Source of the DNA: Telopea speciosissima
Taxonomy: Eukaryota; Streptophyta; Magnoliopsida; Proteales; Proteaceae
Direction: 5' to 3'
Length of the DNA: 64,000 bases
Assembly (NCBI RefSeq): GCF_018873765.1
Contig: NC_057926.1
Coordinates: 56,123,378-56,187,377, forward strand
The translations under genes were made by a program, and so were the position numbers. Shown piece by piece: positions 32,201 through 60,437 of this stretch (position 1 is its first letter; each line of letters opens with the position of its first letter). The notes under the pieces are model-generated. The model was not told where the DNA came from. It made no database searches and worked only from the letters and a program-made list of their open reading frames with translations.

Positions 32201-34065
32201 GAGAGTTCTTGTTCCATGAGGAGAAGATGCTATCCTCGAATGATGCCACACCTTGTGGCTGATCATCATTAGTAGTGTGGAATGAAGATGATGAAGAACC
32301 AGGCTGATTAAATCCACTATATCCAATACACATATTTACCCTATTTTTTGTAAAAAAAAATTACTTTAGGGAAAAAAGGTATTACCTCAAACTGTGAATC
32401 TTCAACCAATCTCTCTCAAATCCACTAAATCTTAGCTGTAGATGACTTGTACAAAGTTCTAACAACTTGTTCCTCCAAGAGTTGAAAGTGGAATGGCCAA
32501 AATCCACATAAAATTGATGTTTTTAGGATCCCAGAAGGTTTCACATGAAACCTATCAAAACTACACATTGAAATGGATCGAAACAGTACCCATTTCAACA
32601 GATTTTGGTTTCTAAAACCCCAGGTTGTACGGTTTCGGTGAATCAAAACGGCACTATTGAAAACAACCGATATTTTGACCAGAACATGAAAGTTTCAGTC
32701 GAAACTTGGAATACCTAGTGAGTCACACTAGTTTTCGTGCCGGTCCAGGTCGAAACCAAAATTTTTCTTTAAGTTTTGACTAAAACTACTGATTCCTTGA
32801 ACCATGATCCAAGTTACAAATACAAATCAAAGGCCAAAAAAATAGATCAAACCCATCCAATGGTGGTGATCATGCTCTTGCATTATTCTGTTCCGATTAA
32901 AAAAGCGTGGCCTCGAGTTTTATAAAATGTGAGGATCTTCAATGCACGACCAACAACCATTCTCCTTGACCCAATGAAACCAATGATCAGACCACAATCC
33001 AACGGTATGAAATCAGCAACATGGAATCCATTGTTGAAGTTGCCACGTGGAAAAACAAATTCGACTGGTTCAATAAAAAACCAACCAGTTTATGCTCCTC
33101 CATGGAGTGGTTCTTCGATGATAACTGGAGCCACTTGGTCTTCTATCGTCAATAGTTCGTCTTGCTTTTCCACTCATTTCTCAACGACTGAGATCATTTG
33201 CGAAGAAAGATTCCATACGATCATATGTGACCAGCAATTGGTTATTAAATTTCTTGCATTGTCACCTAGTCTCTTCGAGATTTGCTTCAACTTTTCACAA
33301 GTTCTCTTGCATGACTTGAATTTGTTGGTGGAGAGCAAACAAAAGAGTAGGATCCATGGTACCTATGGCTAGGTTAGGTTCTGATACCAATTGATTCAAA
33401 TAAGGGGTTGTTCTAGGACTGTGAACGTTCCCCAGTAACAGTAGTGTGAACAGTACTTAGAAGGAGGATGATAGAGGAGAGAAGGGAGAGCAGAGACAGA
33501 AAGGAGATCGTGGGGGAGAGATGGGAGATAACAATCTTTTTCAAACAAACTAATTCAATCCATTACTCAAACCATGGGTCAGGTTTAGCATCTTACATAT
33601 ATTTATAAAAAAAAATAATAACATAGAAGTCTAACTAACCTAAGCTTTTTATTTGACTCAAACAGTTAAATAGTAAAAAAACATAACAATCTAAACTAAA
33701 TCTAATTTCCTCCCCCAGCTGTAGGCTAAAAAAGGAGAGTATTAATTGACTCAAAGACTTATTTAATAATAAGGAAAAAGAACTGTGTCCGGGAGTGGAG
33801 CTCCTACACCCATACACAGGATGGGGCAAAATGACCACCCCACCCCCCATGAAAGGCAGAAATCCCACCCCTGTTGATGCTTCCGCATGTGTTCCCATTG
33901 GCCCCTGCACTGGCATAGGGGCAACGCTCCCGGACAGAGAATGTGTTCCCTTAATAAAATAAATAAAGACCAACTAAAAAAGAAACTTCTCCCTATCGCA
34001 GAAAAGAGAGAACTCTTGAACAGAAAAAAATAACTAAGACTTCAAAACAACTGTAAAAATTTTAT

Positions 34066-37006: not shown

Positions 37007-37165
37007 GTTCTCTGTGGGGGAGCGTGGCCCAAGCAGGCATGCGGGGACCTATGAGAGCAGGTGCATTGGCATCTTGGGGGTGGAATTTCCACCTTTCATG
37101 GGGGCAGGGCAGTCATTTTGTCCCCCGTGTCTGGGCGTGGGTGGTACACTCCTCCTCACAGAACT
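37007..37165. mobile_element. GC-rich foldback element, copy 2
   Basis: Left end GTTCTCTGTGGGGGAGCG, right end inward GTTCTGTGAGGAGGAGTG. The body contains GGTGGAATTTCCACCTTTCA, itself a palindrome. Same architecture as copy 1. Confidence 0.8.
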
Positions 37166-38078
37166 TTTCTCCTTTATTTTAACTTCATTTATTTCAGGAT
37201 TACCTTTCACTAAGCATGCATACAATGAACACACAAGCTTCAACCGATCATTGATACAGGCCAATTTCTTTGGAGAGGTGTGATTTTATGAGGCTGGTCT
37301 TTTGAAAATATGTTAATGTGACACCATCAGATGAGAATCCATCAAGTGATGAACCAAATACATGGTTTTCAATCCAATGCTTTCAAGATAAAAGATTATG
37401 CAAGGGTGGTTTTGCAGAATCATGATTATTTTCCTTCAAAACGAAGGGGGGAAAATCAACTTATTCAATAAGCTTTCGTGCCGAAGTAGCTCGTGGTTTC
37501 TAAAAACAGGTTTAGGGCCCCTGGCTCTCAGATCGGGATGGGTTTCGGATAGGGTTGAAGAGAGATTGTAAGCATATTTTAAAAAACCAGGCAGGACCGT
37601 ACGGTTGAACCGGGTTATTTTGGAATATTTTCGCTTTGTTTCTATTTAGCATATAAAGTTAGGGATGTAAATTGATCAAATTTGAATCAAACATAAACAT
37701 TATATGCATCCCCATTTGACTTGCTATTGAATATATTCAGATAGTTTTCGAAAATTGATTTTTTGAACACGGACGGATTCTTCTAAACGTATACGATTGT
37801 GACTATACATTTACATTCCTAGTCGAGACTAGAGAGTCTGGAGAGAGCAGCATTGTGGTTTCAATGTCCATGTTGAGTGGGGACACCTGAACAAGACGAA
37901 AATTGAGAAGACAGGAAGGTGAAGGGCTGATCTACAACCCCACTAGGGTTGATGTTAAAGTGTTATATATGAAATTACATAGTTTTTCTCATTAATTTTT
38001 AGTTTTCCTCATTAATTTTTTGTTTAATTACCTATAATATATTATAAATGAATAAAGATATTTTAGTATTATAAAATA
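37166..38078. other. Intergenic, degenerate
   Basis: No gene. A patch with GGTTTCGGATAGGG / CCGTACGGTTGAACCGGG words lies around 37530-37625, of the degenerate CGGTT type. AT-rich elsewhere. Confidence 0.4.
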
Positions 38079-38640: not shown

Positions 38641-40606
38641 TATTTAGTCATATTTTCATAACCAAGCCTAAACATATATAGACTGAAATTGAAATATCTG
38701 TATCAACATCCGATTAGCTTTCAAATGAATTTGAATAATTTCTGAAAATCAAATTTTCTAACTTAAATTTTTTCAAAAGGATACGAAAACAAATGGAATA
38801 CGAATTTTCGATCATGCATCTTGCTCGCAGTCTAAGCAGTAATCCCCTTTTTTAAAACTTCTGTTTTTTTTTCATGAAAATGTAATCATACAAACCACAC
38901 ACCAATCCCGAAAGATTAACCGATTTTTAAGACCGTAGAATGGCAGTACCGCAGTAGCCCCTTTCTTGAGAACCGTAAAAACTATCTGATCAACTTTGCC
39001 TTTGTCCTAACATTGGTGAAGACCAACAAAATAGATTCGAAACTAATTCAGCAGTCCCTCTACCAACTGTTTGAAAGACATCTTCAACTACTTTTCACCT
39101 TAAAAACTATTAATACTCTCAATGGTACAATGGCTGAGCACTAGTGGATCAATTGGACTTACCAGCTTGAGAGGGCCCCGCCAATTTGGCATTATTTTAC
39201 TGGGCTAGTTTGGTTAAGTTCCAACAATAACACTCTTTTGTTTTTGGTGAAAATGCCAAACAAATAAATTAAAATATGTCAAGTTCCAACAAGAGCACTC
39301 TTGGAGTCTTGGTCAGGCCAAATCCATTAACATCAAGACTATAGGTATCAGCATTTTGTCAGTCTCGGCCGATACTTATACAATACCATATTGGGCTGTA
39401 TTGGGCCTAAATTGGGGTGTTTTCTATACCCTCTCATAGGGCAATGTGAGATGATGCCTCTGCCCCTTGTATATTGATCTCCAGTGATACTGATTTGCAT
39501 TGATATCGATTCGCATCCATACTGATACTTAGAACCATAATTAACTTACCTTTTACCTCCTAAAGCAAAGTGAGAGAGAGAGAGATAAAAAATTATACTG
39601 AGCCATGATTTATGTACCAGCAGGCCAAAGCCATTAACATACCTTTTTTTTCCAGAAGGGCTTTTGGTTAGGAGCTGATTTGCCAAAGCTAAATATTGTC
39701 AAAACGCCATGAATGGCTCTTGATGCAATGCCAAGATAGAGTTTAGTCTGCTAACCAACAACCTAACAACCACTGTCCTCTTTTACCATCTTCAATCCCT
39801 TCTGTCTTCACATCCTACGCTGACATATAATATTTCAATCCAGCCCTTAAATGCCAAAAGCTAAATTTATAACTATAAACAAACCTGAAAGTTATCATTG
39901 AATTAGGCTGACTTGATCATAAAGAAGCAAAATCTAGGTCTCTCTCTCTCTTGGACATTACAACCACTGGGAAGCTCTGTTATACCTGGGGCAGTGATAC
40001 TGTGAATGCCAATGTAAAGAACAGATGTGAAATCTTCTTAATCCAACAGTTCATATATGTTTGATCAAATGATTTTGAGCTTCTGATGGTCAACTCCTTG
40101 ATGGGTCATCCAAATTGACACACCTGATGATCCATATTGTTAATTAGATGTTTGAAAGAGACCCAATACCTAGAAAAGATCTGGCAGGCGTTGCTGCTAC
40201 TTAGTGAGAAGATAGATATTCTCACATATCTGAAAGGAAGACGAATGTGGGACCCTTTTTCCAGGTACCTCTTATTAGAAAACCTTAAAATTAGGGGTGG
40301 GTGACCCAGGAGGACTAAAATCTGAATCATTTATTGTAGAAAATCCTGGTTTCCATGTCTCATCATTTGGTTGGCTGTGTCCTTAAGTGATCTCTACCAC
40401 ATTGCCTAACTCTCTTCCATGCCTCACCATGTGCTTCCCTTAAAAAATAGTACACAACCCACACTGAATGGGACCTCTCTCTGTCTCGGTCTCTGTCTCA
40501 CACAGCTTCTACACACTTATATCAATCTCAATTCAGAGTTTCAGACCAAAACCCATTTCACTACTCTCTCTCTCTCTCTTTCTCTTCCTCGATCTCCAAC
40601 TGAAAA
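38641..40606. other. Intergenic; promoter side of the first PADRE gene
   Basis: At about 39345-39540 there is a degenerate patch of GATATCGATTCGCATCC / TCGGCCGATAC words related to the CGATACGATATC repeats downstream. The rest is AT-rich without genes. The final 150 bp (CT-rich, 40560-40600) are the likely leader of the gene at 40607. Confidence 0.4.
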
Positions 40607-41104
40607 ATGGGGAATACCACATCTTGTGCTCCAACTATTATCTCAGGTGGAACAGTAAAGGTTTTGTTAAGTGATGGAAGACTAGAGGTGTACACAAGAC
40701 CAATTAAAGCAGCTGAGCTGATGCTAGAAAACCCAAGGCAATTTGTATGTAACTCTAGTGATCTCAAGGTGGGTCACCGGATTCTAGGCCTCGGAGCAGA
40801 CGAAGAACTCGAACGGCGCCGGCTATACTTCATTCTACCAATGGATTTACTCTACTCAGTGCTAACTAATGAAGAGATGTTATCTCTCTCATACAAGGCA
40901 TCAAGAGCAATGAAGCATGGAAACTCCAACAACATTGTAAGAATATTTCCTGTGTTAGGTGATTTTTGTATTTTCCCTTCAGAAGTGAAGACATTAGAAG
41001 AAGAGTCACCAGAGAGAAAGCCACAACCCACAGAAAGATTCTCTAGACAGAGATCATGGAAACCTGCTTTGGATACTATACTTGAAACCCCATCTTGGGT
41101 TTGA
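40607..41104 (+). CDS. PADRE (DUF4228) domain protein, 165 aa
   Basis: Single exon from ATG 40607 to TGA 41102-41104. The N-terminus MGNTTSCAP has Gly2 and Cys7, a possible myristoylation/palmitoylation signal seen in many PADRE proteins. The domain runs through the first about 90 residues: KVLLSDGRLEVYTRPIKAAE, LMLENPRQFVCNSSDLKVG, then LGADEELERRRLYFILPMDL. The tail is Ser/Pro/Arg-rich and disordered, containing RSWKPALDTILETPSWV, as in family members. PADRE genes respond to pathogens and abiotic stress; the molecular activity is not known. A second, diverged PADRE gene lies at 59877. Confidence 0.92.
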   Translation: MGNTTSCAPTIISGGTVKVLLSDGRLEVYTRPIKAAELMLENPRQFVCNSSDLKVGHRILGLGADEELERRRLYFILPMDLLYSVLTNEEMLSLSYKASRAMKHGNSNNIVRIFPVLGDFCIFPSEVKTLEEESPERKPQPTERFSRQRSWKPALDTILETPSWV

Positions 41105-41977: not shown

Positions 41978-42463
41978 ATCTCAGCTTACAGGTATATGGG
42001 TTTGTCTCTTTGGCTTTCATTACCCCACACAGAGATGGCCCATTTTGTAAGAGGAAGTGAGCTAGCCTGTGAATCCATCCATCATAATTATTGAACGGAA
42101 ATTTCCTATTAGTTTCCTGAATGTAGTCTATATTTATCCATTTTTTTCTATAAAATACTTTTTTTCTAATATTTTTGTGTTAAAAGTATATTTACTGAAA
42201 TTGATAACCATGTATATTACCATTATCTTCAGATACACAAAGTTTGCGAAGCCAAGGAATAGACCTTGGCCAATCTGTGGAACACATGATAGACACGGTC
42301 TTCTTTTCTAAGTCGCTTAATAAAACAAGTTTAAAGTCTCTTTCTCCCTTTACTTTTAATGAATATGTACACCATTTTACTGAGGATGGGTTATGTGAAT
42401 GTTTGAAGTGAAATATAAGCATTAAAGTGGGAAATATAGAATTAGTATTTATGCATTGAGCTG

Positions 42464-43685: not shown

Positions 43686-45518
43686 CTAGTTTGGAGAGCT
43701 CATAGTAATGTCTAGAGTACCAATACACATTCATGGACATACACGGATGTGTGCTAATACAAAAGGGGGTATTTGGTTAAACATGACTCTGAAATTTGAC
43801 ACGTTTCTAATTTAGACCATATCCTCTCTTTCCAAAGGTCAGAATGAACATATCATCTAACTTTTGTGATAATAATAAATTTTTTATGAAAATATAAGAA
43901 AATTGAACCATCGGAAAATAAGATCTAGCATATTCATAGAGACAGCCCCCTCCAAACTTACTTACCCAGATGATAAGCTAGGCTAGTATAAGATCTATCT
44001 TGTTTCATAAATGTTATATCCTTAAGACTGTTTTAAATCTCAAAAGGAAAAAATAAAAAATAAAAAATAAAAGAAAAGAAAAGGAAAGGAAGAAAATAAG
44101 GAAAGAAGAAGAAGATAAGAAGACAGCTCCCACGGCTAATTACCCCCCCTTTTTTTTTTTTTATAGACTAAGGAATAAACAAAGTATTTACAGAATCTTG
44201 TCCATAAAAAAAGTGACGATGACAATTCACAGCTTTCCTAGCAACTCTGGTAGAGTCTGTCCATATTTCATGGACTCTCTTCCTAACAATATTGCCCACT
44301 TCTCCTTATTGAATTCCTCTTGTCTCGGCTTCTTGTGGGCATCTTGCAAACCCTTAATGTACACAAATAGTAAGCAATTTGTTTTTATAGAAAATAACAT
44401 AAGCCCATCCGACTTCCTTAGAAATAGGTTTAAACTACCATACAGATAATGAGGAGGATGATCCATGGTATGTACCACAGTATGCATTGGTGGATAGGGG
44501 GATGTTGTTACTTCGACAAAGGAAGGTATTGTTTGGTACAAGAATAAAATGTTAGGATCTGAAATCTATCTAGAAATGTTAAGCATGATACCATTAAGGT
44601 TAGGGTTTTGAAATTTGAATGTAATTGCATTACTAGCCTCCATAAAAATTAAATAGTGGTAGAAAAAATAGCCATAAAATTATTCAGATAACTCTGTCTA
44701 ATGAATGATTGAGAATAAGGATAGTAATTGATCCGAGGAAATTAGAGTTTGATTTTTTTTCTGTTTTTAATCTTAATGGTTCTACAACCTAAATTCTTTT
44801 AAAATAACAACAAACAAAGTGGAGAGCTTAAACCTTTGACTATTCTATGAAATAGTTAACTGCTTTAACAATCAAGGACTATGGATGGATTGATGAGTCA
44901 TGGATCAAATCATGGATTGATCGGCACATTTTCCAATGGATAAAAAAAGAGTCATTTTATTATTAGTTAACTAATACTGAAAATGATGGTATGTAAGCAA
45001 AATCATGGGTAATATTTAAAGTGTAATAATAATAAAAATTCAGAACAGTAGAGATCTTGGAATAATCATAGGTTCACCCATTGGCCCAAATGCTTATGAA
45101 GAGACCATGCAACTAAGTAGAGATTTTTTGCCAAATAATAAAAAATTCGAAACAATCTATCTAGATTAGCATATCAAGGTCGTCCAAATATCTATTACAT
45201 GATAGAGTGAAAGAAGTTCAAATTTGTAAACAAGTGGATCCCAAGATCTCCCTAATCACATGTAATATTTCAATCAAAACAAAAATTTTCAAGTGGCAAA
45301 ATGTATGTTTAAAAATTAAGATCATGGGAGAAAGCAAAGTAATGTTCAGTATATAGTAATATACATGAATATGTGCAATGCAATACACGAGAATATATTT
45401 AATTACCAAAAAAATACACGAAAATATATTTGATTAAATTAGACTCTAAAATTTGACGCATGACTAATCCAGAATCCAGATCATATATTATCTATCTAAA
45501 AATCAAATTATCATATAT

Positions 45519-45652
45519 GAAAGTGTTCTTTGTCCGTGAGTGTGGCCTACACCAATGCTCCCATGTATCTATCTCTCTCCTCCCCTTGTGGAGAGGAGAG
45601 AGATAGGACACATGGGAGTGCTAGCGTAGGCCAAGTTCTCGAACATAGAACA
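45519..45652. mobile_element. Foldback element, copy 8 (in duplication copy A)
   Basis: A near-perfect hairpin: CCTACACCAATGCTCCCATG and ATCTCTCTCCTCCCC on one arm, matched by the reverse on the other (GGAGAGGAGAGAGAT, CATGGGAGTGCTAGCGTAGG). It has an equivalent at 52276 in copy B, so it predates the duplication. Confidence 0.85.
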
Positions 45653-45820
45653 TTCCCTTTCTCATATATCACTTCATGTTACACAATAAAGATTGATAGG
45701 CCCCCGCTCAAATGAGTATTTCCCTAGTTATTGCAAGGTTATAAAACACAATATCAGGTATTGTTTTGGTCACTATTGATGTCAATATATCAATACTAGT
45801 ACATATTGGTTGAATCTGTC

Positions 45821-46323
45821 TAGGGTTGCAACAGGTTCAGGTTGGGCCGGGTTTTTTAAAACCCTAGCCCAACCCTAAGTCCCCTTAGTTGGGCCCAGGC
45901 CCGCCCTGACCCTGACTCAGGGCCTAAATACCTTGACCCTAACCCTAATCCTGACGGGCCAAGCCTAGCCCAAGCCCGCCCTGATTGGCCCTGCAATAAT
46001 TAAATTAAAATAACAAAACAATGAAAGATGTGAGAGAGGCGGCTTGAACCCAAGACCTTTTGATAGCAAATGGTTTTTACACAACACAAACTAGCACACT
46101 TGATATATGAATAATAACTTCTATTTTTTGATAAATAAAGAAATTTCTTCAGGGCCAAAATCAAGGTTGGGCTGACCCGAAGTCTCAACCTTGACCCGAC
46201 CCGATCCTGACTCAAGGCCAGGGATTTCTGGCCCTAACCTGCGCTCAGGGCCAGAAATCTTAACCCAGGCCCTGTTCGGGCTCAGGGCGGGTTCGGGCCG
46301 ACAGGGCCAAACTTGCAGCCCTA
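45821..46323. mobile_element. hAT-like element, 503 bp, GGGCCAGGG-word body (copy A only)
   Basis: Ends TAGGGTTGCAA and, inward from the right, TAGGGCTGCAA. Exact 8-bp direct repeats AATCTGTC lie at 45813-45820 and 46324-46331. Copy B has one related octamer (AATCAGTC, about 52569) and no insert. The body is mostly GGGCC/CCCTGACCC words plus an AT-rich middle. No transposase. Confidence 0.88.
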
Positions 46324-46605
46324 AATCTGTCCATATCGATTACATATTGGTTTGATTAAAAATATGGGGGGAGGGAGATTGCTACATTGCCCTTGAATAG
46401 ATTCCTTTATATCCTTCTCACATAATAAAAAGTGAGAGACCCACATTGACAGACTCTCTCCTATTTTATTCATGTGGCTCCCATATGGATTCCATATAGA
46501 TTATACCATTGTCCAACCCCCTCATTGGTGTAATGTACAGATTTCTTCTTACACTGTCATTGTAAGGACCCTCTCAAAAAAATTCTCTTTCTGACCATAT
46601 CAACC

Positions 46606-46688
46606 TAGGGGTGTCAATTTTGGACCGGATTTGGTCTTGACACTTTAGAGTCGGAACCGCTAGAGAAACGGACCAGTTGACACCCCTA
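46606..46688. mobile_element. hAT-like micro-MITE, 83 bp (copy A only)
   Basis: Ends TAGGGGTGTCAA and, inward from the right, TAGGGGTGTCAA. Exact 8-bp target repeats TATCAACC at 46598-46605 and 46689-46696. The matching place in copy B (about 52878) has a single site and no insert. Confidence 0.9.
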
Positions 46689-47090
46689 TATCAACCTATC
46701 TATATCGATGTCGTATTGGTATCAAACTTTGATCATGGTATTGGTAATCGTGTAATTGGTGTTGGCAGAAAATAATTCCGACTCTTGACCGATTCTGTAT
46801 CACTATATCGGTACGGATCAAGGGTAAAAAAATCAAAATTTGATTAAAAAAAAATTAAGGGCAAATCCAGATTGATACGGGCCCGATACTAGCCAATACC
46901 AATACCGTATCCGACGCGGATCCGTTTGACCATTCCCCCGATACGATATCAATGTTTAGAAAACTGATTAATAGGCGTGATTAGAATAAGGGATTTTAAA
47001 ATTTGAAAAACTTGGAACGAATAAATAGGGTGATTAAAATAAGGGATTATCATAGTAGGAAAGAATGAGGGTATATTATCATTTCCTGTA

Positions 47091-47340
47091 ACCGCGGGTG
47101 GACAGCTGCTCGCCTTTTCCTCAGCAGTGCCCCATCTTCAGTCGTCACACGGCAACCGACACACCAATTGAGCCGCCATCGTGTGTCGCTGCCGGCGCGG
47201 CAAGTGACGCTGACTGCACGCTTTCCTTATTTCCGCGACCATCAATTAGGAAAGCGTTTCGCATAATACGAGATTTTGCCGACATTCTTCCCTTCGAATT
47301 GAGGTCATTACTGATTTACCTCCAAGTTCCACCGTTTTCT
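47091..47340 (+). other. GC-rich gene-like block (copy A)
   Basis: The block from GACCGCGGGTGG to about 47340 is much more GC-rich than its surroundings and conserved with 53431-53900. Both copies encode RDFADILPFELRS near the end, and the nucleotide match around it is nearly exact. In A it is the 3' part of an ORF at 47098-47457; in B the upstream frame differs. It may be a first exon of an old gene or a captured exon. Not recognised. Confidence 0.4.
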
Positions 47341-47479
47341 CTACACCATACTCCCTCCCGTCCACAGGTTTATAGTTATCGGTATCATATTGATCATATT
47401 AGTCAATACATATCAATATCGATTGTAATTGATACTAGACCGATATGGTATCGGTGAGACGGCTATGGACACTTGCTTT

Positions 47480-48000
47480 TAGGTAAGGGTGTCAATCCGG
47501 CAGTTCCGTTCCGGTTTTTTGATTTCGGTGTGAGTTTCAATTAAACTGAAACCAAACTAATAAGGGTTTTTCGGTTTTGGTTTGAGTCGGACTCGGTTTG
47601 GTTAGGTTTGTGATATCAGTTTCAATTCGGTTCAGTTCGGTTTGAAACCCAGGTGTAGGCTGGTTTTGGGTAGAGATTTTGGTGTTTGGGGGTTGTTTAT
47701 AGTGTTCGATTCAGTTCGGTCCTATTAGGCGGGTCAGTCTGTGGCCCGTCGATTTAGACCGAACCGAGTCTAAATTGAATTGTTCTCTAACCCGTAAATC
47801 GAAGTCAAATTGATAAGGCATCGGTTGGGTTTGGAACGAGGTCGATCAAGTCTGGCCGGTTTTAACGGTTCGGTTTAGGTTTTAGAATTTTTATCCTATA
47901 TCGAGCTGATACGAATCAATACTGATGATATGCATCGATTTTAGTATTGGTATCGGTTATTCGATTGGTAGTAACTAATACCGATGCCAATACCATATAT
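47480..48000. repeat. Degenerate GGTTCGGTTT and CGATATC word repeats
   Basis: Starts near 47485 with AAGGGTGTCAATCCGG, a hAT-like end, followed by about 390 bp of GGTTCGGTTTGG-type words. The opposite end is not clear. From about 47895 it passes into CGATACGAATC / GGTATCGG words shared with copy B (about 54110-54190). Confidence 0.55.
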
Positions 48001-48119
48001 TAAAACAGTACTTCATTTGGTACCTTTGCATTGCATTAGAGAGGGGTCTTTTCGCGTTGAGTTGTGTCTGGACACAAGTACACGCCTAGGCATAGCACCG
48101 GTTAACGTTCTTTCTCCCT

Positions 48120-48420
48120 TAAAGTAAATGTGTTTACAACCATTTGTGATGGAAATTTTGTTAAAGCATCTAATAAGGTTGGATGGTCAGTCATGTGTTC
48201 GTGAAAATTATTTTAATACTGCAAAGATGGATTTTGGTTTTATAGGGAACGCATAGGAGTCGGGGGCAAGTGTCATCATCAATGGATTACGAAGAACAGA
48301 AGAGCTAGGTGCCTCGATCATTGATGTTTTGACTGATTGTAAGAGCTTAGTGGATTGGTTGACGGAAGGAAATAAGGAACGGTCGTAGAAGATATTTACT
48401 ATTTTAAAGCAGGCATGGTA
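48120..48420 (+). mobile_element. LINE RNase H fragment (copy A only)
   Basis: Frames read KMDFGFIGNA, then ASVIINGLRRTEELGASIID and VLTDCKSLVDWLTEGN, like the tail of the L1 RNase H domain. Broken, and without counterpart in copy B. Confidence 0.55.
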
Positions 48421-48447
48421 AACAGTTTTATTGTCTTTAGGTCCGAA

Positions 48448-48750
48448 TCCCCAAAGGATTGGGCTCCTCTCCTTGGAGGGCATCTCCCAATGAGAGCCCA
48501 ATGAGGCATCCAACGGCTGGGCTGTGCCGCACACATGTCGAAATATGTGCAACACGGATTGAGCTCCTCTCCGGGGAGCCTAGCATGCCCAGGGGGTATC
48601 CAGCCTTGGATGCCCTTTGGGCACATCCTGGACGTTGAGCTCCCTGAAGATAAGCCGGATCCGTGCTACACAGCCCAACCCAGCCACTGGGCACTCATTG
48701 GGCGATGCCCTACAAGGAAAGGAGACAAATCCCCAAATCCTGCCCACTAC
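48448..48750. mobile_element. Two-tier foldback element (copy A only)
   Basis: Outer arms of about 65 bp: left GGAGGGCATCTCCCAATGAG, right inward GTAGGGCATCGCCCAATGAG, both reaching GGGCTGTG. Inner arms: ACACGGATTGAGCTCC and inward CACGGATCCGGC ... GGGAGCTC. No coding capacity. Absent from copy B. Confidence 0.75.
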
Positions 48751-49485
48751 AAGCCCAATCCTAGACCTTCACAACAACCAGGTTAGGTGGACAGGTTGAG
48801 AATCACCATGAATAAAAGAATCTAAATTCTCCGTGCACCTTTCTAATGCTATCAAAGAGAGCCCAAAGTTAATTTGCTGGTAGCCTTCAAGGGTTAGGTA
48901 GGTTTTTGTTGGGCAAGACCAGGTCCTAAAATGTCAAACATTTCCTACCTCATACAGTGAAATTCATATAAGAACTACTTCAATTGCCTGCTAAAGACAC
49001 CTAACTGCCTACCTTTGCGTCATCCAACTTGAGTCTCAAAGTCATTTGTACTTCGATAGTGGGGTTCTGCTGGTCTTGTATATATGGGTGGTAGGTGAAC
49101 AATTAGTCTACTCAATATGTGTATTAGGTGAAAGAATTAGTCTACTCATTAATAGAATTTTAGGGGTAAGGTGGGTTATGTCCCTCCCATTGTACATCAA
49201 TTTTCTTTTCATCATTAATAAAATTTTAGGGGTTTTCCCAGGTCCCAGATAATATTAGGGATAAAAAAAAAATAGTCTACTCAATTATAGTAACAAAAAA
49301 CCCTTCCATAAGGCTTAAGCTAGAGGTTCTGCCTTAAGATCCTTCTTAGAAGTTATTATGTTTCCATGGACGGCTCCATTAACAACATTAATGCAAGACT
49401 ATTTTGACATTAAAGAGCAAAAAATTGATTTTTAGTTTATGGTGCACACTTACTAATCCCTATTACCTAACGAGACTGTCTAAAT
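48751..49485. other. Unassigned insert sequence in copy A
   Basis: Not in copy B. At 49085-49235 the motif TTAATAAAATTTTAGGGG recurs, like the 3' UTR of a plant LINE. No complete element or gene is seen. Confidence 0.35.
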
Positions 49486-49858
49486 GACACCTTTATAGGT
49501 GTATTTAGAACTTGTAACCTTCTTTTGATTGTCCCTTGTCTTATTCTCTAAAAGTTCTTTAAATCAACGATAAAATAGGTTTTTAAAATAATTTAAAAAT
49601 GATTTATCTTATGTTAAGGAAAAAGAATGCTGCCAGGCTATGTAGCGTACGCGAGTGCCTCCCAGTGTCTATCTCTTCTCCCTCCTATGAAATGACATAT
49701 CTAAATGACAGTTTAATAAAATTTGTCATGATCTTTGCACATTTTTCGAGGACACATCTAAAATGACAGGAATTACCCGTGTTGAAAACAAAAATGTGAT
49801 ATACTAAAATGACAAATAAGTACAAATTATTTGACACCTTAAGGAGTGTCAATAAGAA
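49486..49858. mobile_element. MITE-like element with GACACC...GGTGTC ends (copy A)
   Basis: Ends GACACCTTTATAGGTGT and ATTTGACACCTTAAGGAGTG. Interior ATGACATATCTAAATGACA and TTGCACATTTTTCGAGGACA match 54330-54535 and, less closely, 15345-15530. A foldback remnant (AATGCTGCCAGGCTATGTAG) sits inside at about 49626-49685. Confidence 0.6.
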
Positions 49859-50289
49859 ATTTCCTTACCTAATAACTAAATTTTTATAAATATGTTTCAG
49901 TAGTAACTACATTAAGATGCTAGTGTAACTACAATTATTAAGTAATGGTTTTATTCGAAATATTGTATTTACATTTTCAAAGCATCTTTAGAAGTTTTTT
50001 TTTATTTGGTAACTAAGCATCTTTAGAAGTTAGTTGACTCAATTTGAACAAATTATAAAGGATAGAAATGTCAAAAAAAATGAGTTTTTTAATTAAAACA
50101 ATATGTTCTTTTCAATTGTTTCTAAATGGTTCATCAAACTTTTAGTAAGTAATTAATATTCTATATTCATTATTTAGTTTGATGATATAGACATTCTATT
50201 ATATTTCTCTTCTATTTTTTATTATTTTTTCTTGAGGAGTATGTGAATCTTTCTAATGATACATGAATCATACTTTTAAAAGATATGGG

Positions 50290-50462
50290 GGAGAGTTTTT
50301 TTTGTCTGGGAGTGTAACCCTTGCACCAACGCGGGGTCAATAGGGGTGCACATGGAAGCATCAATAGGGACGACAATTCTACTTTTCATGAGGCACACAA
50401 TGCCATTTTGCAGGTGCCTATGTCTGGGTGCAGGAGCCACACTTCCGAAGAAACTCTTTTTT
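50290..50462. mobile_element. GC-rich foldback element, copy 11 (copy A)
   Basis: Left GTCTGGGAGTGTAACCCTTG, right inward CGGAAGTGTGGCTCCTGCA. Equivalent to 57186-57358 in copy B, so it was present before the duplication. Confidence 0.8.
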
Positions 50463-50515
50463 CCCAAAAGATATACATGAAAGTATGGTATGTCCAAAGC
50501 TATTAAAAATCACAC

Positions 50516-50826
50516 TTTCCTTGATGAAAATTAAGAGTGCCATTGGGTCAGTTTAATCGGATACTAGGTCAAATCGAAACCAAACTTAAGCTTGAACCAA
50601 ATTGTTAAGTCGAAGTTTGGTTTTGATTCAAGTCTTATCGGTGTCAACTTATCGAGTTTTTGTTAGTTTGATACCTATTTCAATATTACATACAAGTATT
50701 AAAAAAACTAGTAATAAAAGCATTGTATTTTTTTATCAATTCGGTTTCGAGTTCGAATATCAATTTTGATTGGGCTATTCAGTCGAGTCCAACATCTAAT
50801 ATTGACTCAATATCTTTCCTTTTCAA
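50516..50826. other. Junction between duplication copies A and B
   Basis: Not shared with the sequence upstream of copy A as far as I can see. Consists largely of CGAAACCAAAC / GGTTTCGAG words. Confidence 0.45.
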
Positions 50827-51197
50827 ACAAATCGAACCATCAAAAAGTAGAGTCTAGCATATTCAAAGATATAACCCCCCTAAACTTACTTAGCCAGATG
50901 GGGAGCTAGGCTAACATAAGATCTATCCTGTTTCATAAGTATTTTAAATCTAAAAAAATTCCAAAAGATAAGAAAACAACTCCCACAGGATCTTTCCCTC
51001 TTGATCTTCCCTTGACAACCACTTTACCAGCTCTGTAGAGTCTGTCGATATTTCATGGACTCGTTTCCCAACAACATTCACAACATTGCCCTCTTAGTTC
51101 GTTTGTGAATTCCTCTTATCGCAGCTTCTTGCGGGTTTCATGCAACCCCATAGTGTGATCAAATTGCCCATCCAGTTTTCTTAGAAGTATGGTTAAG

Positions 51198-51385
51198 GCC
51201 AGGGTTTTAAGTATTTTAAAATATCTGTCGATACTAATCGATACCTATTTATTTTGTAGAGTATCGATACAATATAGAATCGATACGATACTTAAAAAAT
51301 ATCAAATGTATTGGGTCGATACGTGATCTAATATGATTAATATTTTTCGATACGATATGATATCCAATACCGATATTTTAAATCT
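51198..51385. mobile_element. hAT-like element, 188 bp, CGATACGATATC-word body (copy B only)
   Basis: Exact 8-bp direct repeats TGGTTAAG at 51190-51197 and 51386-51393. The ends show weak inverted similarity (CAGGGTTTTAAGTATT versus inward AGATTTAAAATAT). Copy A has an uninterrupted GGTTTAAACTACCAT (about 44429) at this place. The body is ATCGATACGATAC-type words. Confidence 0.82.
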
Positions 51386-51517
51386 TGGTTAAGACTACCA
51401 TAGAGATAATGAGAGAATGATCCATGGTATGTATCACAATATGCATTGGAGTAGAAGAAGGCATTGTTTGGGGTGAGGATAAAATGTTAAGATCGGAAAT
51501 CCATCTAAAAATACTAA

Positions 51518-51623
51518 GGCTGCATTTGATACGCATTCTTGGAATGTATTCTAGATCGATTTTGTATTTTCGGATGATAAAATAATTGTTTTAATCATCC
51601 AAGAATACATACCAAACACAACG
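51518..51623. mobile_element. Tourist-like MITE, 106 bp (copy B only)
   Basis: Left GGCTGCATTTGATACGCATT, right inward CGTTGTGTTTGGTATGTATT, then CTTGG on both. TAA on both sides (51515-51517, 51624-51626). Relatives of the end sequence (TTTGGTATGCATTCT type) occur at about 1710, 20150 and 61110. Confidence 0.8.
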
Positions 51624-52275
51624 TAAATGTCCACATGATGATGGAAGAGGAAGAAAAAGGGTAAATGTTTTTGGATGAAACTAGGAGAATGTGGTGACAT
51701 GGTGACTTGATGAGTCGTGAGAGGGAATGCGTATGGAAGAAAAAAAAAAAAAATACTGAAAATGCTAAGATGGAAGCAAAATAATGGATAATATTTAAAG
51801 TCTAATAATAATAAAAAATCAGAACAGTCTATCTAGATTAGCTTATCGAGGTGGTCCAAGTATTTGTCACATAACACAGTGAGTGGATCCCAAGATCCCC
51901 CAAATCATATGTAAATCATAGGTAATGGTCCAAATATCTATCACATGACAGAGTAGATGAAGCTCGAATTTGTAAACAAGTGAATCCAAAGATCCCCCTA
52001 ATCACATGTAATTTTTCAGTCAAAAAAGAATTTGTCAAGTGGTAAAATAAATGTTTAAAAATTTAAGATCATGAAAAAAGCAGAGTAATGCATGGTCAGT
52101 ATAATGTAATCTACATTAATATATGCAATGCAATTCATAAGAATATATTCGATTACCAAAAACACATACACGAGAATATATTTGATTAAATTAGATTCTA
52201 AAATTTATCGTGTGACTAATCTAGAATCCAAATCATATATTATCTATCCAATAACTAAGATTATCATATGGAAAA

Positions 52276-52398
52276 TCGTTCTTTGTCCATGAGCGTGACC
52301 TATACCAATACTCCCATATGATATAAGGGGAGGAGAGAGAGAGAGAGAGATGGAAGTACTGGCATAGGCCACGTTCCTGAACAGAGAACACTCCCCTT
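52276..52398. mobile_element. Foldback element, copy 12 (in copy B)
   Basis: Equivalent of the hairpin at 45519. One arm is eroded and a (GA)n has grown in the loop (about 52331-52350). Confidence 0.75.
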
Positions 52399-52620
52399 TC
52401 TCATATGTCATTTGATGTTACACAATAAAGAGTGCTAGGCGCTTGCTCAAATCAGTATTTCCCTAGTTACTAACTTACTGGCTTATTGCAAAGTTATAAA
52501 ACACAATATCGGGTATTGTTTTGGTCACTGCCGATTTCAATATATCGATACCGATATATATTGGTTGAATCAGTCCATATTGGTTCAATTTTAAACCAAA
52601 ATATCAATTTTTTATTAAAA

Positions 52621-52662
52621 ATAGGGAGGGAGGGAGGGAGGGAGGGTGGGTGGGGGGAGGTA
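52621..52662 (+). repeat. (GGGA)n / G-rich microsatellite
   Basis: GGGAGGGAGGGA repeat ending TGGGTGGGGGGAGG. In copy A the same place has only a short GGGGGGAGGGAG. Confidence 0.9.
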
Positions 52663-53430
52663 AGCTATGTTGCCCTCCTATAGATTCTTTTAAATTCTTC
52701 TTACATAATAAACAGTTAGACCCACACTAACACTCACATATTCTGACCATGTGGCTCCCATATATATTCCATATAGATTATACTATTTTCCAACCCTCCT
52801 CATTGGTGTAGTGTGCAGATTCCTTCTTACGCTGTTCTTGTAAGAAACACTCCAAAAAAATCACTTTTTCGATCATATCAGCTTATCTGTATCGATGCCA
52901 TATTGGTATCAGACTTCGATGATATCAATACACATCAATGGAAACCCTCAATCATGGTTTTAGTAATCAGTATTGACAAAGGCTAATACCAATTCTTGAT
53001 CAATCCTGTGTCACTGTATCGACACGGATCTAGGGTAAAAAGGTTAAAATTTGATTTTTAAAGAAAATCAGGAGCAAATTCAGATTGATTCTGAGCGATA
53101 CCAGCCGATACTAATATCGTATCCAACGCTTATCCCTTTGACCATGCCCCCGATACGATATCAATACTTTTTCTAACTGAATTATAGGTGTGATTAAAAT
53201 AAGGTGTTTTAAAGTGGGAAACTGGGAAATAATAAATATTAAGGGATTATCATATTAGAAAATAATGAAAAACCGGGTGACGGAAGGCGAAGCTAAATAT
53301 GGCGTGGAAACGGGAAAGAAATTAAAAAAACAAAAAAGAAAGAAAAAAAAAGAATGATATTATAATGAAGAAAATTGTTCTACCAAAAAAGAAAAAAAGA
53401 AAAAATAAAATAGATATACCTCATTTCCAG

Positions 53431-53905
53431 TGACCGCGGGTGGACAGCTACGCGCCTGCTCCTCAGTACCATCTTTAGTCGTCACACTTCACACGGCAAC
53501 CGACACACACTTCACACGGCAACCGACACACCAATTGAGCCGCCATCGTGTGTCTCTCTGCCGGCAAATGACGCTGACTGCACCCATTCCTAATTTCCGC
53601 GACTATAGGTTATAGGTCAACCTCAAGGAGCAGCGCAGTTGGCAAGAGACGAGGCCTAAGGAAGCTGAAGGTCCTGAGTATGACACCACCTCACCCCTTG
53701 GGGCCACCCGCCTGAGCGAAAACTCTTTGATGAACATGGAGCCTTAGTATCTCCCGGTTCGTGTGTGTTGTGGGGTTGTACACGAGCCCCGGGGATTTAG
53801 TAGATACCTCCTATAACAAATAGGTTATAGGTCAACATCTCGCATGATACGAGATTTTGCCGACATTCTTCCCTTCGAATTGAGGTCAGTACTCACCACT
53901 TCCAA
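53431..53905 (+). other. GC-rich gene-like block (copy B), interrupted by a SINE
   Basis: Counterpart of 47091-47340. It has a local 25-bp tandem duplication (CACTTCACACGGCAACCGA twice, about 53485-53530), the SINE at 53622-53819, and the conserved coding-like end RDFADILPFELRS at about 53848-53886. Confidence 0.4.
53622..53819 (+). mobile_element. tRNA-derived SINE, 198 bp (copy B only)
   Basis: Flanked by exact 17-bp direct repeats ATAGGTTATAGGTCAAC (53605-53621, 53820-53836). The 5' end resembles a tRNA: AGCGCAGTTGGCAAGAG (A box region) and AAGGTCCTGAGTATGACACC (degenerate B box). The rest ends in a short A-rich tail (TATAACAAA). Not an Au SINE. Absent from copy A, so inserted after the duplication. 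Confidence 0.85.
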
Positions 53906-54329
53906 CCATGGTTTTAGGTATCAGGTATCAGTCAGAGCAGTATGGATTTTAGTGTCACATTGGATGCAATATCAATATCAAGTATCAACCTGTATTGATT
54001 GTATCGGATGGTTTTGCCCTAAAAAATATTGATACGATATGGTATTTTAACAATTATAACTACGTAAAAAAAGTGGATTTTGATCTCGTATCATATTGAT
54101 ATGGGCCAATATCAATGATACATATCGGTATTAGTATTGATGTTGGTTACTTAATTCGTAGTAACCAATATTGGTGCCAATACCATATATTAAACTTGTG
54201 CTCCCGTTGGTAGTTGTTACCTTTGCATTGCATTTTGGAGGGATATTTTCAATTTCGTCAATGGGGAACACTAGTTACCAAGAGATTTTGTACTCTATAG
54301 CGATGAAGAAAAACCTAGTCCATTGTTTA

Positions 54330-54535
54330 AAATGATATATCTAAAATGGTAACTTATTAAAAATTGTCATGATTTTTGCACATTTTTCGAGTACACATCT
54401 AAAATGACAACAAGTACTCTCGTTGGGAAAAAATGTGATATGCTAAAATGACAAAAAAAAAAACTTATAAATTTTTTTTTGGGTAAACAAACTTATAAAT
54501 TATTTGACACCTTAAAGAGTGTTAATAAGAAAATT
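54330..54535. mobile_element. MITE-like element, right part (copy B)
   Basis: Matches the right portion of 49486-49858 (TTGCACATTTTTCGAGTACA, ATTTGACACCTTAAAGAGTG). The left end seen in copy A is missing here. Confidence 0.55.
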
Positions 54536-54747
54536 GTTTACCTAATAACTAAAATTTTTATAACTGTTTTCGGTAATAACTACATTAAGATGCTAGTGTA
54601 CCTACAGTTATTTAAATAATGGTTTTATTCGAAATATTGTATTTACATTTTCAATGCCTCAATTTGAAAAAATTATAAATGATAGAAATGTCAAAAGAAA
54701 ATGAATTTTTTAATTAAAACAATATGTTCTTTTCAATTGTTTTTAAA

Positions 54748-57013
54748 AGAGATCCCCTCTCGCCTGCTATTTTCATTTTATGTTCTCAAGCTCTTTCTTC
54801 AGTTATCTCTCATGCTCAGGAGCTTGGTTCTTTGCAAGGCATCAAAGTTCGTCACAGAGGTCCCCCAATCACTCATTTACTATTTGCTAACGATTGCTTA
54901 CTTTTTTCAAAAGTGAAGTTGCAGGAGGTCACATCTCTTAAGCAATGCTTGGATTTATATTGTAAAGCCACTGGGCAGGCTATAAACCTTCAAAAATCCT
55001 CTCTTACATTTAGCCCAAATACGTCTAACAGGTTCAAGCGGTGGTTTTCGAGGGTATTAAAAGTTCCATATGGTGATGGACCTTCTAAATATCTGGGATT
55101 ACCAACTGACTTTGGTATTTCCAAGAAAGTTTTATTTCAAGAACTGAAGGAGAGGACTCTTAGGAACCTACAGGGTTGGAAGGAAAATTTTCTGTCCCAC
55201 GCTGGGAAGGAAGTTTTATTGAAGGCTACAATCGATACTATGTCTAACTTCGCAGGTTCACACTTTAAGTTGCCAGCTTCACTCCATGATTCAATCAGAA
55301 AGGCGAGCTCGGATTTCTATTGGGGAAATTTTGACAAGGATTCCAAAATTCATTGGATTTCTTGGTCAAGACTTTGTAGATCCAAGGTAAAGTGGGGTTT
55401 AGGTTTTAAAGACTCAAAACTCCAAAATCAAGCATTATTGACGAAGGTAGCTTGGCGGCTATGGTCATCACCGGATTCTCTATGGGCTCGCTTTATGAAG
55501 TCAATATATTTTCCACACTCAAATTTCTTTGATGCAAGATTGGGTAACAAACCATCATGGGGTTGGAGAAGTTTACTAGAACGAAGGAAAACACTGCTTA
55601 AAGGGCTACTTTGGCAGATAGGAAATGGAGAAAATATAAACATCTGGCTAGACAATTGGGTTCCAACACTTCCCAATTTCAAGATTCAAGATCCGAAACC
55701 CATTGGGTGCCAATTAAATTCTGTGGCGGATCTCATTGACCCCATCTCAAGAGGGTGGAGGATTGATCTACTTCAAAAATACTTTCAGCCTGGTACAAGG
55801 GAAGCCATTCTCAAGATTAATTTGAGTCTTTTCCAAATGGAAGACAAGCAGTTATGGGGCCCATCGAGTAATGGTATTTTTTCTGTTAAGACGGCTTACC
55901 ACTTGCTATCAAATGAAGCTCAAGCTGCTACCACTACAAGCGCATCTTCTTCACACATTCATTAGTGGGACCTTATTCCAGACTCCACCTGGAAACGCAT
56001 TTGGGGTATGAATACTCTGCCAAAAATAAAAAGCTTTATTTGGAGAGTTTGCGCATAGGGTATTGCTTCAGGGGAGGGTCTTCACTCTCGTCGAGTTCCA
56101 ATCGATTCGTCATGTCTTCGTTGTGGGGCGGATAAGGAAACTGCAGATCATATTCTATTGGGCTCTTCATTTGCTCACTTGGTCTGGTTTGGCAGTAGTT
56201 TGTCATACTCTCCTCCTTCCAACTACAACCCATTGTTACATGAATGGATAGGAAGTTGGGATGCCCTTTATCGGAGTGATAAGAAGCTTGCTCAAGAGTC
56301 GTTAGCGCAAGCATCCTTTCTTTGCCGGTATCTTTGGCTTGCAAGAAATGATTTAACTTTCAACGTCATAGCATGGAGTCCTCAAGAAGTGATTTTGGTA
56401 GCTGAGAAAGCCTATATTGAGTTCTCGACAGCATCTACAAAGGGTCAGCGACGAGATGCACCATCGATTGGTCCTATGAATGCGTTGAATGTTACATGGA
56501 TGCCCCCCGCTCTAGGTTTCATCAAAGTAAATTGCGATGCAGTACTTCTTCAAGGGACCTCGATTGGGGGTTTGGGTTTCATCTTCAAAGATCACTTGGG
56601 AAGCCAAATTAAGGCTATCTCTGCTCCTTATCTTCTCAGCTCAACTGTCCAAGGGGAGGCAGTGACAATTAGAATTGCATTGTCATAGGCTACTGCTCTT
56701 GGATTCACACATCTTCTAGTTGAATCTGATTGTAAGGAGATCATTGATTTGCTTCACACCGGTAATCAGTTCCCGCCCTTGGAGGTGGCAGCGGTAATCA
56801 ATGACATTAGGCATCAATTTCTTTCTCCTGTGTTCCACGAGCTCTGAACGGTATTGCAGATGTCTTGGCCAGGAAGGCCCTGTCTATCATGTGTACAACA
56901 AATTGGCCAAATTCCATTCCTTGGCTTCATAGGCTTTGTGTTTCTAAAGCTAATGGCTTTACACATGGTTCTCAATTTCAGTAAATCTATTTTTCACCCA
57001 AAAAAAAAAAAAA
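54748..57013 (+). mobile_element. 5'-truncated L1 LINE (copy B only)
   Basis: Breaks the sequence TCAATTGTTTTTAAA / TTGGTTCATCAAAC, which is continuous in copy A at 50125. Begins inside the RT palm (RDPLSPAIFILCSQALSS), then HLLFANDCLLFSKV (FADD-box variant), SKYLGLPTDFGISKK, LRNLQGWKENFLSHAGKEVL, zf-RVT (IKSFIWRVCA, SSCLRCGADKETADHILLG) and RNase H (FIKVNCDAVLLQG, GLGFIFKDHLG). Ends in A13 at 57000-57013. Stops at 55963 and about 56057 and a stop after the RNase H start make it inactive, but long open frames show it is the youngest large insert here. Confidence 0.92.
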
Positions 57014-57185
57014 TAAATTTGGTTCATCAAACTTTTAACATGTAATTTATATTCTATATTCATTATTTGGTTTGATGATGTAGACATTCTATTATCTTTC
57101 TTTTGTACTTTTTATTATTTTTTCTTGAGGAGTATATGAATCTTAATTTCTAATGATACATGCATCATGCTTTTAAAAGATATGG

Positions 57186-57358
57186 GGGAGAGTTTTCACT
57201 CCAGGAGTGTAGCCCTTGCGCCAATGGGGGTCAATGGGAGCGCACATGGAAGCATCAATAGGGGCGGCAATTCCACTTTTCCTGAGGGCACAACGTCATT
57301 TTACGGGTGCCTGTGTCTGGGCGAAGGAGCCACATTCTCGGACAAACTCTTTTTTCCC
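57186..57358. mobile_element. GC-rich foldback element, copy 13 (copy B)
   Basis: Left CCAGGAGTGTAGCCCTTGCG, right inward CCGAGAATGTGGCTCCTTCG. Equivalent to 50290 in copy A. Confidence 0.8.
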
Positions 57359-57404
57359 AAAAGATATACATGAAAGTATGGTATGTCCAAAGCTATTAAA
57401 AATC

Positions 57405-57502
57405 ACTCTGAGTGTGGATCGGAGAACCCCAGTCGTACGATGTGCACTGTACGTCGTGCGGCGCACAAGTGCGCTGGAGAGGAGCCGGATCCAAAAACTC
57501 TC
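57405..57502. repeat. GC-rich palindromic patch (GGATCC...ends)
   Basis: Starts at the end of copy B. Contains CGTACGATGTGCACTGTACG and GCGGCGCACAAGTGCGC, both partial palindromes, between GTGTGGATCGGAG and GAGCCGGATCCAAAA. Probably another small inverted-repeat element. Confidence 0.5.
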
Positions 57503-58870: not shown

Positions 58871-59703
58871 TACAGTAATAAGTCCACAAAAATATTAAAT
58901 TTTATCATATATTTTTTTTTTGTTTTTTTATCAATTTTTTCAGTTTCAATCTAAATGGTAAAGTTGGCTAATTCTTATAAAAAAAAAAATCAAGTTGGCT
59001 AATCAGTTGCTTTCTATCTTTTACGGTTTCTAAAATTCAAAACTAATACGATAAAGTATTCAGTTGGTTGGATTTAAGTTCTTGTACTTCTTTATTTATG
59101 TTTTTTTATATTTTTTATATCCCATATGTTTGGTTCTCTTGAAGAAAAACAAAATAAACTGAACTTACCAAACACCTATTTATTATTTTGTTTTTTTTCA
59201 TTATTAAAAAAAAAAAAAACTAATAATACTTCTATGAAATGTTACCAAACGTCACTTTATTACCTACCCAGGGTAGAAGTAAGAACCTTTTGAGAAATTG
59301 GAATTGGAAATGTATATCATAGCTGTTAGCTGTAGTGACACATAAAAGCAAATAGTGTAAAAAAGATAAAAAAGACAAAGGAGCTCCAGTTCCGAAGAAG
59401 AGGAATCTGAGAAGAAAAGCAAATGGTAGGCCCCACACGTAATAACAGCGAAATATCTGCAAACATATCCAAAGCACGCATTTTCAATTATTTTAATTTT
59501 TGCCCTTTCCTTTGGAATTTGTTTGGATCTTTCCTATTTCCATTTTCCCAATTTTCAAATCCCCTACGCGGATTTCCACCAAAACGAACGAACGAACGAA
59601 CCATGTCAAACCAACACAACTGTCATCTAAACAACGAATAATACGAATCTTCAAATCCCCCTTATGGCCCACTCATCTCTGGTGGACCCCACATTTTCCT
59701 TCC

Positions 59704-59714: not shown

Positions 59715-59876
59715 GCCTCCCAAGTTCTCCACCGCCTAAACTCAGAACTCTCATCTTCCACAACTCTCAAGTCTCAACCCTTTCACATACGTAGACTTTC
59801 TTTCAGCCTTAATCTCAAGCACCTAATCTGCTTTTCTTCTCCTTCTTCTTCTCGTGTTCTTCTGCAACTTGTGAAT

Positions 59877-60437
59877 ATGGGGAACTACATCTCCTGCACT
59901 CTATCTACAGTCCCAGGCAATAAGCACTTCTCCAGATGTGCCAAGGTAATATTACCTAGTGGGGATATCAGGCAATTCGACGGACCCGTCAACGCAGCGG
60001 AGCTCATGTTTGAGAACCCAAATTACTTCTTAGTAAATTCTCAATCGCTGCAGATTGGTCGTAGATTCTCTGCTCTCAACGCCGATGAGGAATTAGAGAT
60101 GGGTAACGTCTACATCATGTTTCCCATGAAGAGATTGAATTCTGTTATCACTGCGGTGGATATGGGAGTGCTTTTGATTACTGCCAATTCGGCAGCCAAG
60201 CGGGCTTCTGGGGGAAAACTCAGGATCTTGCCGGAATCCGGTGGATGCACTGCACGGGTTGCGCCGGTCTCAACTGCTGTTAACAATTTGCAGGGAAGTG
60301 AAGAAGGTTTGCCGAAATTGAAATTGGATGATATTGAAGACTTCTCTGTACAAGAATTCAAGCACAGGTTATCAGTTTGCAGATCGAGAAAGCCTTTGTT
60401 AGAAACCATAACAGAGGAACCCCTCTGCTTTAGGTGA
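59877..60437 (+). CDS. PADRE (DUF4228) domain protein, 186 aa
   Basis: Single exon from ATG 59877 to TGA 60435-60437. An in-frame GTG lies two codons upstream, but ATG giving MGNYISC fits the family. Gly2 and Cys7 suggest lipid modification. Domain: KVILPSGDIRQFDGPVNAAE, LMFENPNYFLVNSQSLQIG, then LNADEELEMGNVYIMFPMKR. A variable middle follows, then the C-terminal motif RSRKPLLETITEEP, also seen in the paralogue at 40607 (RSWKPALDTILETP). The two proteins share the domain layout but are only modestly similar, so they are old paralogues. Family linked to stress and pathogen response; biochemical role unknown. Confidence 0.92.
   Translation: MGNYISCTLSTVPGNKHFSRCAKVILPSGDIRQFDGPVNAAELMFENPNYFLVNSQSLQIGRRFSALNADEELEMGNVYIMFPMKRLNSVITAVDMGVLLITANSAAKRASGGKLRILPESGGCTARVAPVSTAVNNLQGSEEGLPKLKLDDIEDFSVQEFKHRLSVCRSRKPLLETITEEPLCFR

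Follow-up and report, generated by a model that had tools for sequence, protein, structure and literature searches.

Genes and Setting of the Locus

All sequence comparisons were made within the 64-kb window, i.e., the whole stretch of DNA analysed here. The genes recognizable in it by Pfam mark it as plant DNA: two proteins with PADRE, which we take to be a plant family, BRO1/ALIX pieces, and one Methyltransf_7 protein. The last corresponds to 23019–23843, within the second of two neighbouring minus-strand methyltransferase-like gene pieces (19997–20888 and 22637–23843); self-BLAST matched 19997–20793 with 22880–23757, and the ORFs of these pieces are split over frames. The two PADRE genes (40604–41104 and 59715–60437) lie on the same strand, are 37% identical (68/184), and flank a pair of repeated segments, copies A and B, whose features are listed in Table 1. 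We do not include the PADRE genes in the duplication, as their distance of 19 kb does not fit its 6.9-kb period.

Searches for coding sequence within the pair found no Pfam family at its curated cut-off in copy A (six frames) or in the three minus frames of copy B, the plus frames of B being represented in the scan by the two ORFs of a LINE (see below). The same frames of A and B yielded only sub-threshold matches (E up to 0.5), to RVT_3 (E 0.0044) and Dbr1_C (E 0.1). A hidden gene in the unit was also rejected, since tblastn of the copy A ORFs against copy B gave matches in many frames of either strand, the pattern expected of non-coding homology.

Table 1. Features of the duplicated segment, with the corresponding site in the other copy for elements found in one copy only.
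Feature	Position	Strand	Evidence or repeats	Site in other copy
Copy A of tandem segmental duplication	43900..50516	+	self-comparison, block alignments	
Copy B of tandem segmental duplication	50829..57409	+	self-comparison, block alignments	
Spacer between copies	50517..50828	.	312 bp	
Older foldback, copy in A	45519..45661	.	target repeat TCATATAT both sides	
Same foldback, copy in B	52271..52400	.	loop region decayed; TCATATG both sides	
Older foldback, copy in A	50287..50465	.	target repeat AAAAGATAT both sides	
Same foldback, copy in B	57184..57358	.	AAAAGATAT both sides	
503-bp element, A only	45821..46323	.	terminal inverted repeats TAGGGTTGCA... / ...TTGCAGCCCTA; target repeat AATCTGTC	empty, B 52568–52575
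81-bp MITE, A only	46607..46687	.	terminal inverted repeat AGGGGTGTCAA; target repeat ATATCAACCT	empty, B 52875–52884
A-only 1.6 kb	48054..49678	.	without clean target repeat	
18-bp micro-insert AGTTACCAAATAAAAAAA, A	49997..50014	-	perfect 17-bp repeats	about 20 bp missing from B at target
188-bp weak foldback element, B only	51198..51385	.	target repeat TGGTTAAG	empty, A about 44426–44433
106-bp MITE, B only	51518..51623	.	terminal inverted repeats, TAA both sides	A aligns on one side only
198-bp SINE-like insert, B only	53622..53819	+	17-bp perfect target repeat	both flanks align, A ~47241–47258
15-bp micro-insert GTTTACCCAAAAAAA, B	54474..54488	-	perfect 13-bp repeats	empty, A about 49816–49829
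5'-truncated LINE, B only	54748..57013	+	zf-RVT domain, poly(A)	A continuous across 50126/50127

Architecture of the Tandem Duplication

Self-comparison of the window gave a colinear diagonal of ten direct blocks running from 43900/50829 to 50516/57409, the best of which (44973–45820 / 51752–52575) had an E of 9e-166 in self-BLAST, which resolved this diagonal into smaller pieces. The first-pass annotation had placed A at 43899–50515 and B at 50827–57405, with at least eight ordered anchors; the ten blocks bear this out, with refined ends within 4 bp, and the continuous diagonal goes far beyond the scattered transposon matches that had been named as the result to contradict it, which did not materialise. 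The two copies are direct, adjacent, and colinear over more than 1 kb, as expected of a tandem segmental duplication, and we judge the duplication to be old because their substitution identity is 85.0% over 2791 trusted columns. It is a real but ordinary event in mostly non-coding plant DNA. Tandem segmental duplication followed by decay is a known kind of system, and the A/B pair is the same in kind, with neighbouring colinear copies, indels, and independent insertions, but with lower divergence at its 3' end than elsewhere.

The spacer contains a short palindrome (50572–50628), has no second match in the window at E 1e-4, and matches the left and right flanks no better than 100 shuffles do. 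The flanks and spacer yielded no repeat that would mark a site of exchange; exchange between flanking repeats was considered and not supported, as the scores of the left flank against the spacer (32.5 and 34.0) did not exceed the maxima of 100 shuffles (38.0 and 34.0). The duplication may have formed by either unequal exchange or a replication-based route.

Mobile-element remains are abundant in A and B alike, and block 9 has parts that are seen again near 15 kb, so that the pair might alternatively represent a large non-autonomous transposon that inserted twice, side by side. However, blocks 1–8 do not recur outside the pair in the 64-kb window at E 1e-5, except for one 52-bp match (block 5, 46481–46532 with 62020–61971), and comparison of the left with the right flank gave no match above shuffles; we therefore regard this origin as very improbable. 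Self-BLAST found no further repeat of the whole A/B unit elsewhere in the window. The history that we favour with considerable confidence is that a largely non-coding piece of a plant chromosome was duplicated once in tandem, the unit now measuring ~6.6 kb, and that the copies would then have diverged through point mutation and small indels, through partial deletion, and through transposons inserting independently.

Elements Shared by Both Copies

Under such a history, an element that occupies both copies between the same target repeats would have landed before the duplication, and an element that has target repeats in one copy and an uninterrupted site opposite would have landed after it. Two foldbacks are present in A and B with matching target repeats and thus predate the duplication. 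The 9-bp repeat of the 3' foldback is identical at all four sides, and its B copy has a diverged minus-strand relative (33773–33941), itself related to 37008–37182. The 5' foldback still folds well in A (z -8.9), and no longer does so in B (z -1.6). Its A copy was rejected as a microRNA gene: the best match, MIR6426, reached 46.3 bits where the gathering score is 96, and did so on either strand and chiefly through pairing, and this foldback gave 21 matches to many families at E 0.01.

The GACACC element (block 9) is also present in both A and B and has a minus-strand relative near 15 kb; the left, middle, and right parts of this family are matched in A, and only the middle and right parts in B. 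The initial count of at least three insertions older than the duplication takes in the two foldbacks and reaches three only if the truncated GACACC element is included.

Insertions Found in One Copy

Gap edges were scanned at 14 sites for target repeats of at least 6 bp. Repeats of at least 8 bp with sensible ends were found at 6 of these sites, so the expectation that gaps coincide with target repeats held at that length for these six; of the other eight, three had nothing, four had 6–7 bp, and one had low-complexity matches only. The junctions at five of the six sites combine a target repeat on the filled side with an aligned unfilled site opposite and are clean cases of insertion after the duplication: the 503-bp element, the 81-bp MITE, the 188-bp foldback, the SINE-like insert, and the 15-bp micro-insert (whose repeat measures 9 bp exact in the gap-edge scan and 13 bp exact in the direct-repeat survey described below). 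At the sixth, the 18-bp micro-insert, the target is missing in B, and the empty-site comparison gives no before or after. The first-pass statement that the other copy is uninterrupted wherever one carries clean target repeats is therefore true of the best cases and fails at this insert.

The 198-bp insert in B, whose target letters in A match poorly, is called SINE-like from its look and target repeat only; neither ARAGORN nor Rfam, with matches taken up to E 10, saw a tRNA in it, so that the tRNA-like head expected, together with pol III boxes, of a tRNA-derived SINE was not recognized by either. The target repeats of the 106-bp MITE (3 bp, TAA) and of the LINE (about 4 bp, TAAA) fall below the 6-bp limit of the scan, and their junctions were read by eye.

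The LINE is identified by reverse-transcriptase-type coding remains and a poly(A) end. Its second ORF matched zf-RVT in Pfam (E 1.7e-06; 29 bits, cut-off 27.5), its first ORF (415 aa) matched no family at E 0.01, and a relative lies on the minus strand at 42159–42303. LINE target repeats are about 7–20 bp long, and the repeat here is shorter, none of at least 6 bp having been found in the scan. The number of insertions placed after the duplication reaches the at least six originally proposed only if this LINE is added to the five clean cases. Plant L1-clade LINEs end in poly(A) (PMC3747384). The insert in B resembles them in its zf-RVT domain, 5' truncation, and poly(A) end, and differs in its target repeat of just ~4 bp.

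Some of the gaps might be excisions or deletions instead of insertions. Part of the A-only 1.6 kb, the largest stretch confined to A, is in fact best read, from its sequence relationships, as a probable loss from B and not as an insertion into A, because the family to which its 3' part (49494–49623) belongs, shared with 15414–15542, is matched in A by left, middle, and right parts and in B by the middle and right ones only; the target of the 18-bp micro-insert is likewise absent from B. Against this, the five clean cases have both target repeats on the filled side and one on the opposite side, as insertion predicts, and we consider deletion or excision an improbable explanation of the gaps, insertion remaining the preferred reading. 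The A-only 1.6 kb further holds a sub-threshold RVT_3 trace near 48251–48421 and an inverted-repeat pair (48456–48732). Another A-only stretch, 47461–47886, matches the left flank in inverted orientation (44.5 vs. 41.5 for shuffles; E 4e-6), the one pair in the flank comparisons to exceed its shuffles, which would fit two elements of one family.

Divergence Along the Unit

Divergence was taken from block alignments together with an alignment from which seven inserts had been removed; an initial global alignment, in which extending a gap cost very little, was set aside, its gaps having been filled by chance matches. Such matches persist in the insert-removed alignment at 47495–47877 and 48054–49678, and the counts leave out these regions, the gap regions between blocks, and A 49679–49689. 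Plain block alignments gave 83.8% identity over 3036 columns (K2P 0.184).

A single event predicts one common divergence along the unit, and this was not what we found. K2P was 0.191 ± 0.011 for A 43900–48053 (2059 columns) and 0.111 ± 0.013 for A 49690–50516 (732 columns), the 3' 0.8 kb, with a change point at A 49824 (LR 22.1) that was reached by 0/500 block permutations (largest 21.5). The 5' part is itself uneven, ranging from 0.101 (47079–47338) to 0.317 (47887–48053). Transversions are also fewer in the 3' part (26/732 vs. 135/2059 columns), so that the difference is not accounted for by loss of methylated C alone. The lowest 5' value belongs to a GC-rich block (47079–47338 / 53421–53915) that is better conserved than its surroundings, perhaps as a former promoter or first exon, and that in B contains the SINE-like insert.

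The lower divergence of the 3' part, transversions included, is what two duplication steps of different age would give, with blocks 1–8 older and blocks 9–10 younger. Yet block order is the same in both copies, so that a second event must have exchanged the homologous end and nothing else, a result that gene conversion reaches more simply; moreover, 50286–50470, the portion of the 3' part with the shared foldback, has a K2P of 0.180 ± 0.037 (23 transitions, 5 transversions), like the rest of the unit. We consider two steps unlikely. The uneven divergence weakens the notion of one event without exchange since, not that of a tandem duplication. We infer a single duplication event followed by mostly neutral decay, with the 3' part less diverged through gene conversion or constraint. 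Gene conversion, constraint, or a lower mutation rate may each lower divergence there, and this part could have been converted later or could stem from another event. Because divergence is uneven, insertions in the 3' part could also have been copied or erased by gene conversion, or an element moved from one copy to the other.

Micro-Inserts With A-Rich Tails

Three inserts of 15–19 bp (34117–34165, 49980–50031, and 54461–54501, repeats included) end in TTACC(C) followed by an A-rich tail and lie between perfect 13–17-bp repeats. A survey of exact direct repeats of at least 11 bp around inserts of 8–60 bp, on both strands, returned 82 pairs, among which four inserts were A-tailed (the three above and 58961–59003) and one, as a control, had the A-run at the opposite end. 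TTACC(C) precedes the tail in 3/4 of the A-tailed inserts; the insert at 58961–59003 is 19 bp long and A-rich, has perfect 12-bp repeats, and is without the motif. Three of the 12 TTACC(C)AAA sites in the window lie inside inserts between 12-bp exact repeats; at least three did so in 1/20,000 random-position draws, a figure that is too favourable, the motif having been picked after the cases were seen. A wider survey of A-runs of at least 6 (112 on the plus and 102 on the minus strand), with repeats sought within 3 kb, showed no general excess in the window: repeats of at least 12 bp numbered 6 upstream and 5 downstream, the latter being the control, so that the signal is confined to the short inserts. 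This survey listed 34117–34165, 58961–59003, and 49980–50031, and not 54461–54501.

Two further loci were noted in passing. At 39216–39302 a 43-bp insert lies between 22-bp repeats (20/22 alike), and its minus-strand end, TTTTCACCAAAAACAA, resembles the LINE end, TTTTTCACCCAAAA. By eye, an older case with imperfect repeats occurs in both copies, at about 45380–45440 and 52130–52190, and its B member is included in a listing of direct repeats.

By sequence, the three micro-inserts look like extremely truncated retroinsertions, and we read inserts of this kind as retroinsertions that halted nearly at their start. We tentatively suggest, as a possibility held at somewhat below even confidence, that the genome has recurrent ultrashort retroinsertions of 15–19 bp, consisting of a few bases, TTACC(C), and an A-rich tail between perfect 13–17-bp repeats, in which target-primed reverse transcription would have halted a few bases past the tail. 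Break repair with filler DNA, for which the term patch-mediated is used in print, is an alternative source of such micro-inserts and a rival to this suggestion. A literature search found no title on ultrashort plant retroinsertions, which is weak evidence of their absence from the literature.

Meaning of the Chronology and of the Micro-Inserts

A tandem duplication with transposons landing before and after it, as the first-pass annotation had it, is still the best reading, with a coarser chronology than proposed and with not all gaps being insertions. The relative order of MITE, SINE, and LINE activity reduces to a before/after sorting into two bins, without order inside either, because target repeats of this length do not allow dating. 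The empty-site idea itself is already known: related empty sites serve to check transposon insertions for a plant MITE (PMC3626606) and for plant Tc1-like elements (PMC4054914). The A/B pair is like these in setting a filled copy with target repeats against an unfilled homologous site, and differs in that a single tandem pair spanning less than 14 kb contains all the sites, so that several families share one before/after reference event. Such a shared event lets the activity of several transposon families be ordered locally, a modest gain given two bins and uneven divergence.

If the reading of the micro-inserts is true, repeat annotation would miss ultrashort scars of this kind or mistake them for small tandem duplications, and, if they are general, many retrotransposition scars would be too short for present annotation.
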